Origin: Roseococcus sp.
Lineage (GTDB): Bacteria > Pseudomonadota > Alphaproteobacteria > Acetobacterales > Acetobacteraceae
Reading direction: 5' to 3'
DNA: 52,344 nt
Assembly (NCBI GenBank): GCA_026414745.1
Contig: JAOAIK010000035.1
Location: 1 to 52,344, forward strand
The stretch's first letter is position 1, and every line of letters begins with the position of its first letter. The notes below the pieces were generated by a model, which did no database searches, had not been told where the DNA came from, and was given only the letters and a program-made list of their open reading frames with translations. Shown in pieces: positions 23,475 to 26,736 of this stretch. Position numbers and translations under genes: made by a program.

Positions 23475-24941
23475 ATGTTCCTTCTTCCCGTCCCGCGCGC
23501 GCGCGGCCTCGCGCCGCTGCTCATGGCCGTGCTGGCACTGGCGCTGCTCTCGGCCTGTGCCCAGGCGCCGCAGCGGGGCGCCAGCGCGCCGCAGCCGCGC
23601 AGCTACGCCCCGCCCGGCCCGCCGCACGATCCCTGGGGCCCCTGGATCCGCGAGGCCTCGCGCCGCTTCGACGTGCCCGAGCGCTGGATCCGCGAGGTGA
23701 TGCGCCAGGAATCCGGCGGCCGTGCCACCGCCACCTCGCCCGTGGGCGCCATGGGCCTGATGCAGGTGATGCCCGGCACCTATCGCGAGTTGCAGCGCCG
23801 CTACGACCTGGGGGACGACCCCTACCACCCCTACGACAACATCATGGCGGGCACGGCCTATATCCGCGAGATGTACGATCTCTACGGCTCGCCCGCCTTC
23901 CTTGCGGCCTACAATGCGGGGCCGCGCCGCCTCGAGGACTATCTCTACAACAACCGCGGCCTGCCGGCCGAGACGCGCAACTACGTCGCGCGGGTGGGGC
24001 CGGGTGTGATCCGGGCCAGCCCGGTGCGGCGTGCCCCGCCCGAGGTCTATGCGGCGGCGGAAATCCCGCTGAACATCCCTCCGGGACCGCGGCGGATGGA
24101 CCGGGCCACCCAGCTCGCGCTCGCCGAGCAGCGCAGCATCCGCGAGCAGAACGCCCGCTCGGCCAGCCCGGCCCCGGCCGAGCCCACGCCCGCGCCGACG
24201 CGTCTCGCCGCTGCCCCCGCCTCCAACCCGGTGGTGGGCGGCTCCATCCTGCGCGCGGGCGGGGTCGTGGCCATGGCGCCCATCCCCGACGGCGCCACCC
24301 CGGAGGGTGCGGCGCGCCTCGCGGAGGCGGAGGCCCGGGCGGCCGGCGGCGCGGCCCCGCCGGCCGGCGGCGAGCTCTTGCCCGATGGCCGGATCATCGT
24401 GGCGCGCATGGACCCCATCCCCGACGGCGCCACCCCGGAGGGCGCGGCGCGCTTGGCGGAGGCGGAAGCCCGGGCGGCGGGCGGCGCGCCCATCACCGGC
24501 GCGCCCCCCGCGCGCGATCCGTCCGGCATGACCGACCGGCGCGACCTCACGGGCCGGCCCGGCGAGCGCGACATCGCGGCGGCGCGGCTGGTTCCCCTCC
24601 CCCCGCCGCCGGTCGCGGCCCGGCCGGAAGGGCGGCGCCTCGGTCTCATCGGCGCGGCCCAGGCCAGCACCCTGCCGGCCGGCTTCCGCCCCGCCTCCGC
24701 CCCGGCGGGCGGCCAGTGGGCCATCCAGGTGGGCGCCTTCGGCTCGCCCGAACAGGCGCGGCAGGCGGCCCAGGCGGCGGCTCATGCCAGCGGCGGGCGG
24801 GTGCAGGTGACTCCGGTCCAGGCCGGCCGCGCCACCCTGTTCCGCGCCCGCGTGGTCGGCCTCAGCCAGTCCGGCGCGCAGCAGGCCTGCCAGCGCATGC
24901 GCGGCCCGTGCAACGTCCTCGCGCCGGGAGCCCAGGGCTAG
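23475..24941 (+). CDS. Lytic transglycosylase lipoprotein with C-terminal SPOR domain
   Basis: A 488-residue envelope enzyme. Signal peptide with lipobox LLSAC (Cys28); SLT catalytic domain about 50-175 with catalytic Glu79 (MRQESGGRATATSPVGAMG), LMQVMPGTY and AAYNAGP; a long Pro/Ala linker; then a SPOR domain from about 412 (GGQWAIQVGAFGSPEQARQA) which binds denuded septal glycan. It should cleave peptidoglycan, probably at the division site. The linker holds a 25-residue sequence twice (269-293 and 314-338). Its TAG is seven bases before the apparent rlmJ start and in the same frame. Confidence 0.92.
   Translation: MFLLPVPRARGLAPLLMAVLALALLSACAQAPQRGASAPQPRSYAPPGPPHDPWGPWIREASRRFDVPERWIREVMRQESGGRATATSPVGAMGLMQVMPGTYRELQRRYDLGDDPYHPYDNIMAGTAYIREMYDLYGSPAFLAAYNAGPRRLEDYLYNNRGLPAETRNYVARVGPGVIRASPVRRAPPEVYAAAEIPLNIPPGPRRMDRATQLALAEQRSIREQNARSASPAPAEPTPAPTRLAAAPASNPVVGGSILRAGGVVAMAPIPDGATPEGAARLAEAEARAAGGAAPPAGGELLPDGRIIVARMDPIPDGATPEGAARLAEAEARAAGGAPITGAPPARDPSGMTDRRDLTGRPGERDIAAARLVPLPPPPVAARPEGRRLGLIGAAQASTLPAGFRPASAPAGGQWAIQVGAFGSPEQARQAAQAAAHASGGRVQVTPVQAGRATLFRARVVGLSQSGAQQACQRMRGPCNVLAPGAQG
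24279..24488 (+). repeat. Two 75-base direct repeats inside the transglycosylase gene
   Basis: Bases 24279-24353 and 24414-24488 encode the same 25 residues, starting PIPDGATPEGAARLAEAEAR. The DNA copies differ at only a few third positions, so the duplication looks recent or is kept homogeneous. The copies lie in the linker between the SLT and SPOR domains and lengthen it by 45 residues per unit. Confidence 0.85.
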
Positions 24942-24947
24942 CGCGCC

Positions 24948-25766
24948 ATCAACTACCGCCACGCCTTCCACGCCGGGAACTTCGCCGACTGCGTGAAGCA
25001 CGCGCTGCTCGTGTGGCTGCTGCGCGCGCTGCTGCGCAAGTCCGCGCCGCTGCGCGTGCTGGACACCCATGCCGGCATCGGCCGCTACGACCTCGCGGGC
25101 CCCGAGGCCGCGCGCACCGGCGAGGCCGCCCGCGGCATCGCCCGGCTGATGGACATCTCCGAGGGTCCGCTCGCCGATTATGTGGCGCTGGTGCGCGCCG
25201 ATGGCGGCTATCCCGGCTCGCCGGCCCTGGCCGCCGCCCTGCTCCGCCCGCAGGACCGGCTGGTTCTGGTGGAGCTCCACGAGGAGGATCACGCCCGGCT
25301 GCGCGCCCTGTTCCGCGCCGACCCGCGCGTCGCCGTGCACCGGCGCGACGGCTGGGAGGCGGTGCGCGCCCTCACCCCCTTCCCCGAACGGCGCGGCCTG
25401 CTGTTCATGGATCCTCCCTTCGAACAGCCCGGGGAGTTCGAACGCATGGCGGCCGCGATCAAGGAGGCCAATCGCCGCGCCCGCGGCCTCGTGCAGGCCG
25501 CCTGGTATCCGGTGAAGGGCCGCGCCCCGGTGCGCGCCTTCCACGCCGCGCTGCGGGACTCGGGTGTGCGCGACATCCTGGCCGCCGAGCTGCATCTGCG
25601 CGAGCCGACGGATGCGGCGCGCCTCAACGGCTGCGGCCTGATCGTGGTGAACCCGCCCTTCGGCTTCGCCCCGGCGGCGGAGGCCATCCTCGCCGCCCTG
25701 CACGCCCGGCTGGCGGAGGGCGAGCCCGGCGCGGGCTGGGCGCTGACGCGGCTGGCCGATGAGTGA
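24948..25766 (+). CDS. rlmJ: 23S rRNA A2030 N6-methyltransferase RlmJ, with apparent ATC start
   Basis: A SAM-dependent enzyme modifying A2030 of 23S rRNA; 272 residues if begun here (E. coli about 280). The family N-terminus YRHxFHAGNxADxxKH is encoded from ATC at 24948 (NYRHAFHAGNFADCVKHALL). VLDTHAGIGRYDL binds SAM and LLFMDPPFEQPGEF is the catalytic motif. No ATG, GTG or TTG precedes this block after the upstream TAG (24939-24941), which is in the same frame; the first GTG (24993) would remove the conserved Tyr and His. Either ATC initiates, TAG is read through, or the gene is impaired. Stop overlaps gpsA by 8 bases. Confidence 0.88.
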   Translation: MNYRHAFHAGNFADCVKHALLVWLLRALLRKSAPLRVLDTHAGIGRYDLAGPEAARTGEAARGIARLMDISEGPLADYVALVRADGGYPGSPALAAALLRPQDRLVLVELHEEDHARLRALFRADPRVAVHRRDGWEAVRALTPFPERRGLLFMDPPFEQPGEFERMAAAIKEANRRARGLVQAAWYPVKGRAPVRAFHAALRDSGVRDILAAELHLREPTDAARLNGCGLIVVNPPFGFAPAAEAILAALHARLAEGEPGAGWALTRLADE

Positions 25767-26736
25767 CCTCGCCATCCTCGGCGCCGGGGCCTGGGGCACC
25801 GCGCTCGCCATCCACGCGGCGCGGGCGGGGCGGCGCGTCACGCTCTGGGCGCGTGACCCCGCGCTGGCGGCGGAGATGGCGGCCGTGCGCGAGAACCGGC
25901 GCCGTCTGCCCGGCGCCCCCTTCCCCCCCGGGCTTTCGGTCACTGCCGAGGCGGCGGCGGCGCTGGCCGCGCCGATGGCGCTGCTCGCCTCTCCCATGCA
26001 GCCGCTGCGCGCCCTGCTCGGCGCCCTGCCCGCCGCGCTGCCGCCGGTGATCCTCGCCTGCAAGGGGATGGAGGCCGAGACCGCTCTGCTGCCGCTCGAG
26101 GTGCTCGCCGAGGCGCGGCCGGGCCTCCCGGCGGCCGTGCTCTCCGGCCCGAATTTCGCGCATGAGGTGGCGGCCGGCCTGCCGGCGGCCAGCGTGGTGG
26201 CGAGCAGCGACGGCGCCCTCTGCGCCGCCGCGCAATCCCTGCTCGCGGGCCCGGCGCTGCGCCTCTATGCGAGCGAGGACGTGGTGGGCGTGCAGCTCGG
26301 CGGCGCGGCGAAGAATGTGCTGGCCATCGCCGCGGGCGTGGCCATGGGCGCGGGGCTCGGCGAGAACGCCCGCGCCGCGCTGGTCACGCGCGGACTGGCC
26401 GAGCTCTCGCGCCTCGTGGTCGGCCTGGGCGGGCGGGCGGAGACGGCGGCGGGGCTGTCGGGCCTCGGCGATCTGCTGCTGACGGCGACGGGGCCCGGGA
26501 GCCGCAACACCTCGCTCGGCCTCGCCCTGGGCCGGGGCGAGCGACTCGCCGACATCCTGGCCGGGCGCAGCGCGGTGACCGAGGGCGTGAGCACCGCCGC
26601 GCCGCTGCTGCGCCGCGCGGCGGCGGCGGGGGTGGAGCTGCCCATCTGCGCCGCCGTGGCCGGGCTGCTGGAGGGGCGGCTGGACGTGCCCGGCGCGGTG
26701 CGGGCCCTGCTCGAGCGCCCGCTGCGGCGCGAGTGA
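25759..26736 (+). CDS. gpsA: NAD(P)-dependent glycerol-3-phosphate dehydrogenase
   Basis: A 325-residue cytoplasmic enzyme making sn-glycerol-3-phosphate for phospholipids. The Rossmann motif ILGAGAWGTALAIHAARAG is at the N-terminus; VLSGPNFAHEVAAGLPAASV and the catalytic Lys in GVQLGGAAKNVLAIAAGVA are typical, followed by LSGLGDLLLTATGPGSRNTS and VTEGVSTA. Its ATG overlaps the end of rlmJ by 8 bases, so it belongs to the transglycosylase-rlmJ-gpsA unit. It converges directly, without spacer, on the hemY-like gene. Confidence 0.96.
   Translation: MSDLAILGAGAWGTALAIHAARAGRRVTLWARDPALAAEMAAVRENRRRLPGAPFPPGLSVTAEAAAALAAPMALLASPMQPLRALLGALPAALPPVILACKGMEAETALLPLEVLAEARPGLPAAVLSGPNFAHEVAAGLPAASVVASSDGALCAAAQSLLAGPALRLYASEDVVGVQLGGAAKNVLAIAAGVAMGAGLGENARAALVTRGLAELSRLVVGLGGRAETAAGLSGLGDLLLTATGPGSRNTSLGLALGRGERLADILAGRSAVTEGVSTAAPLLRRAAAAGVELPICAAVAGLLEGRLDVPGAVRALLERPLRRE

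Follow-up and report, generated by a model that had tools for sequence, protein, structure and literature searches.

The stretch of DNA analysed here, referred to as the window, comprises 52,344 nucleotides of a Roseococcus sp. contig and carries a gene of the 23S rRNA m6A2030 methyltransferase family, rlmJ, whose inferred start codon is ATC, one that hardly ever opens a bacterial gene. All features considered lie on the forward strand. The gene upstream (positions 23475-24941) encodes a protein of 488 amino acids with an SLT transglycosylase domain (PF01464, 85.1 bits) and a C-terminal SPOR domain (PF05036, 35.1 bits); a segment of 24 residues, PIPDGATPEGAARLAEAEARAAGG, is encoded twice within it (24279-24350 and 24414-24485). 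Its TAG stop codon (24939-24941) stands in the frame of rlmJ, six bases before the ATC (24948-24950). Read from this ATC, the rlmJ coding sequence (24948-25766) comprises 272 codons and a stop codon, and its end overlaps by eight bases with gpsA (25759-26736), which the ORF list and profile searches assign to an NAD(P)H-dependent glycerol-3-phosphate dehydrogenase. The rechecked letters of the window run from the TAG over CGC-GCC to ATC and from there over AAC-TAC-CGC-CAC-GCC-TTC-CAC-GCC-GGG-AAC-TTC-GCC-GAC-TGC to GTG (24993-24995), and no ATG, GTG, TTG or CTG is found in frame between the TAG and this GTG. The GTG is codon 16 and the first ordinary in-frame start codon of rlmJ; the ORF list begins the gene there, with 257 amino acids. 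AGGG (24934-24937), a candidate Shine-Dalgarno core seen in the letters and in a scan with the anti-Shine-Dalgarno sequence, lies ten bases before the ATC. A first-pass annotation of the window had described the missing canonical start with ATC in its place, the AGGG at this distance and the transglycosylase gene in the same frame, and the letters agree with it on each of these observations.

The protein read from the ATC matches PF04378 with 215.7 bits (cut-off 27, E-value 8e-64); NCBIfam gave no match for it at an E-value of 0.001. It aligns with E. coli RlmJ (YhiR, 4blu) from the first residue, and both have the N-terminal motif X tail and the DPP motif. The E. coli gene starts with ATG. 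Concerning the relatives, rlmJ was found in 19 of the 21 genomes of the genus set, and its start column reads ATC in seven, ATG in six, GTG in four and TTG in two of them. The ATC genomes are the window's own (G000), G007, G009, G010, G015, G016 and G019. The start region of G010 is identical to that of Rubritepida flocculans DSM 14296 (L031), that of G009 to Roseococcus sp. SDR (L033), and that of G015 matches the metagenome-assembled genome H1_MAG_00044 (L035), while G016 is assembled in two contigs. Thus, the ATC at 24948 is genuine and shared with several relatives. The conservation of ATC, which the first-pass annotation had proposed to look for, was found in part: the codon recurs in seven of 19 genomes, whereas the other 12 carry ATG, GTG or TTG in the exact column. 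Outside the 21 genomes, ATC was absent from the start column of all 184 distinct loci sampled. One part of these, mostly from Acetobacteraceae, gave 86 ATG, 34 GTG, 26 TTG, three CTG and one region with no readable start (L050), and the other part, a wider sample, gave 27 ATG, four GTG and three TTG. The family sample consists of 110 loci read from a search that matched 344 family genomes, together with loci from further searches; in the phylum sample 29 loci were read, and 76 phylum genomes besides G000 had a match. Three loci outside the genus (L060, L066, L204) carry CTG in the start column. L050, from a metagenome-assembled relative, shows at about position 2000 an apparent duplication of seven bases just after the rlmJ ATG, with no start left in frame with the conserved block.

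The ATC genomes differ in how clearly they speak for this codon. In G000, G010, G009 and G007, the reading frame offers no ATN or NTG codon other than ATC after the nearest stop and ahead of codon 16. In G015, G016 and G019 a CTG stands in frame two codons before the ATC, and G015 has an in-frame ATG 20 codons before it as well; these three genomes are therefore no proof of ATC use. As the start common to the ATC genomes, CTG was rejected: G009 and G007 have it in another frame, G000 and G010 lack it, and GAGGG ends one base before it; in G015, G016 and G019 it may still serve. The constant third base C of the ATC weighs little, since several neighbouring C-ending codons are invariant in the ATC rows too. 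A frameshift divides rlmJ in G019 (L093, L094), a draft genome with a listed contamination of 7%.

The segment that pairs best with the anti-Shine-Dalgarno sequence ends seven to eight bases before the ATC in five of the seven ATC rows, at -4.9 to -6.4 kcal/mol. The fit is poorer in the window and G010, with AGGG at a spacing of 10 and the scanned optimum at spacings of 13 and 5. Two relatives that start with ATG, G013 and G008, have GAGGG spaced as in those five ATC rows, so that the ATC occupies the very place of their ATG. Regarding the initiator tRNA, five genomes were searched by pattern, and all eight initiator-like loci found, in G010, G016, G009 and G006, carry the anticodon CAT. In the G000 draft, of whose 37 tRNA matches 30 were read, neither pattern gave an initiator-like tRNA, and the E. 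coli form of the motif matched in none of the five genomes. An initiator tRNA with an Ile-type anticodon was considered and set aside, as a motif permitting CAT or GAT gave only CAT (these eight loci, in four of the five genomes); a GAT tRNA with another stem would escape this motif. Moreover, the apparent start codon of infC is ATA at all 23 loci from the 21 genomes (L095-L117), six to seven bases behind AGGAG and with the next in-frame ATG five codons further on. The genus thus probably already uses one ATH start.

Taken together, we consider it very probable that rlmJ is a working 23S rRNA (A2030-N6) methyltransferase gene and that its translation starts at AUC by means of the ordinary initiator tRNA. 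Initiation at ATC had been one of several options in the first-pass annotation; it is well supported and the best of them.

An explanation which overlaps with this one is termination-reinitiation, by which ribosomes ending at the TAG would restart at the nearby AUC; the start would still be ATC, reached by coupling and not by free binding of the 30S subunit. The distance between upstream stop and ATC is short enough to invite this reading in several genomes (six bases in G000 and G010, 12 in G009, 24 in G016 and G019), but it reaches 63 bases in G007 and 129 in G015. Furthermore, a start codon that overlaps the upstream stop, the close-coupled arrangement, was seen with NTG starts alone: in all six GTG and TTG rows and in G004, an ATG genome, hence in seven of 12 NTG rows versus none of seven ATC rows (one-sided Fisher test 0.016, on rows that are related). 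This count depends on the upstream gene chosen, with G005 and G006 left uncounted (there the ATG overlaps the stop of an unassigned frame, 93 and 97 codons long respectively), no upstream gene identified in G008 and only 186 bases upstream in G001. We regard reinitiation as possible though rather unlikely. Coupling with a rare start, as suggested by the first-pass annotation, holds good as a possibility for the six bases of the window and is poorly matched by the span of gaps, from six to 129 bases, in the ATC genomes.

Preference for a start at AUC over one at GTG 24993 depends on the codons between the two. Initiation at codon 16 would give a shortened, probably inactive protein. It has in its favour that the GTG is the first in-frame NTG codon here and that all seven ATC rows have an ordinary start codon, ATG or GTG, as codon 16. 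However, such a start loses Tyr3, His5 and Asp14, which correspond to Y4, H6 and D15 of E. coli RlmJ. In the E. coli enzyme the changes Y4A, H6D, K18A and D164A are each stated to abolish activity (Punekar et al., PMC3814359), in accordance with the residues Tyr4, His6 and Lys18 named in the first-pass annotation. The counterparts of the four essential residues, Y3, H5, K17 and D155 (the Asp of the DPP motif), are all present in the protein started at ATC. As the annotation had anticipated, beginning at the GTG removes Tyr3 and His5, and because these are the counterparts of Y4 and H6, that start should cost activity.

The pattern of substitutions likewise speaks against a start at codon 16. 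Codons 2-14 of the seven ATC rows contain eight variable columns, distributed 0/1/7 over the three codon positions, and the lone replacement is Phe/Tyr at residue 7. By Nei-Gojobori counts summed over pairs and ignoring relatedness, pS is 0.422, pN 0.0091 and pN/pS 0.022. In G000, G010, G009 and G007, the four genomes with ATC as the sole candidate, the variable columns are 0/0/4 and pN is 0. From codon 17 to the end, the aligned set gives a pN/pS of 0.27 for the ATC rows and of 0.34 for the NTG rows. Since codons 2-14 vary almost only at third positions, selection on the protein, judged from this pattern, constrains the codons right behind the ATC and maintains the stretch ahead of codon 16. 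That these codons are translated follows from this constraint indirectly. In a control comparing the window with G010 for other genes without an NTG start, antisense ORFs passed the third-position filter as well, so that this comparison carries no weight. With this constraint and the loss of essential counterparts, initiation at codon 16 appears very improbable, and we infer that reading begins at the AUC itself. The gene is without sign of decay and the enzyme looks intact; from its sequence RlmJ can be expected to work. The inactive enzyme put forward as an option in the first-pass annotation does not agree with the retained catalytic residues and the strong constraint.

A further possibility is readthrough of the TAG, which would give a fusion of transglycosylase and RlmJ. 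In the window and in G010, whose upstream protein has the same C-terminus as the SLT-SPOR protein of the window, both genes are in one frame, and in other ATC genomes as well the gene before rlmJ terminates in its frame, the gaps being divisible by three. Yet the neighbouring gene itself differs between relatives. Nine of the 19 genomes were scanned for it; it encodes a short-chain dehydrogenase in G017, G009, G016, G007, G015 and G013, four of which are ATC genomes, an ABC transporter in G011 and G004, and RibD_C in G020. The stop codons before the ATC vary also, being TGA or TAG, and there are two in-frame stops in G009 and G007. In addition, the upstream SLT-SPOR protein of the window has a lipoprotein-like N-terminus, and a fusion would accordingly leave the cytoplasm. 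With upstream genes, stops and distances differing between ATC genomes, the fusion raised by the first-pass annotation can be given up as highly improbable. An assembly error or a pseudogene is hardly conceivable: the source genome is a draft of 63 contigs with 91.5% completeness and one RlmJ match, and the ATC relative G019 is frameshifted, but the same codon stands in seven assemblies, including two that match named isolates and one in two contigs, and constraint extends along the whole gene. A single-base error in this assembly, named by the first-pass annotation as what would overturn its reading together with relatives having an ordinary start, does not explain the data; some relatives do start ordinarily, but six others also carry ATC.

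The fewest changes between ATC and NTG in rlmJ are five, whether counted on the tree of the rlmJ protein, of rlmJ DNA or of rpoB, the last of which is without G000 and G014 and includes G007 as a fragment. ATC as one inherited clade was rejected: a tree of rlmJ DNA holding the seven rows together has a p-AU of 1.4e-8, where the trait had defined the group before any tree was made. Either ATC was gained several times, or one early gain was followed by several returns to NTG. Where start and stop overlap as xTGA, the third base of the start codon has to be G, and loss of the overlap may be what frees this codon. In G005 and G006 (L023, L019) an inverted repeat, GAGGGGC and GCCCCTC separated by three bases, ends one base before the rlmJ ATG and overlaps the Shine-Dalgarno segment. 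Both genomes have ATG and fall within a group rich in ATC, so that here a weak start with an open site may have given way to a strong one whose site is masked.

Mechanistically, the upstream Shine-Dalgarno site would place the 30S subunit, and the ordinary fMet-tRNA with its anticodon CAU would pair with A and U of the AUC, the third base being mismatched. By our own reading, AUC with CAU belongs to a weak class of pairs, which counts against strong expression; initiation at AUC is therefore expected to be weak and to result in low RlmJ output. This output would increase if IF3 ran short or were defective, as analogy with infC and with sigR of Streptomyces suggests. A dependence on IF3 as in infC is plausible by this analogy. 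In its most far-reaching form, which we consider doubtful and offer only tentatively, IF3 would control rlmJ of Roseococcus and Rubritepida through the AUC start, the methylase varying inversely to free IF3 and together with infC; repeated switching between ATC and NTG would tune this link, and such tuning would be open only to lineages without overlap with the upstream stop.

Among known systems, infC is the closest. Both genes belong to the translation apparatus and have an AUH-type start, which in rlmJ follows a Shine-Dalgarno segment at usual spacing in five of the seven ATC rows, and rlmJ shows the infC-type pattern, an ATH codon in place of NTG in the start column that is common to relatives, in seven of 19 genomes. 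They differ in that infC encodes IF3, the factor which rejects AUH starts, and so regulates itself, whereas RlmJ is a 23S rRNA methylase, for which we know of no role in start selection. Moreover, infC is uniformly ATA in the loci of this genus that were read, whereas rlmJ switches between ATC and NTG. Elsewhere infC is stated to start with ATT in E. coli and with ATC in Streptomyces (PMC5472188). The same source describes Streptomyces sigR, which has a GTC start codon and is subject to repression by IF3 (mBio 2017, PMC5472188). Like rlmJ, sigR is one gene whose rare start, not of the NTG type, is misplaced by annotation, and it hints at an effect of ATC on expression; unlike rlmJ, it encodes a sigma factor and starts with GTC, and its IF3 dependence was measured, that of rlmJ being proposed. 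For 61,358 ancestral AUG starts, switches to GUG, UUG, CUG and a single AUU are described, and AUC does not occur in the main text (Belinky et al., PMC5622118). A paper on the Neisseria T6SS contains an ATG-to-ATC change, in a disrupted gene. We found no ATC start in rlmJ among the papers listed on rlmJ start codons, on ATC or AUC starts and on Rubritepida and Roseococcus, a search outside which subscription literature mostly lay.

With the start at AUC, rlmJ joins the few genes that start at an AUH codon, among which its recurrence within one genus and its link to a ribosome-assembly enzyme are special. Gene finders limited to ATG, GTG and TTG would trim catalytic residues off a working enzyme, as the ORF list does here. 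With ATC and NTG exchanged at least five times in one gene within one genus, these close relatives form a natural series for measuring the effect of AUC on a conserved enzyme.
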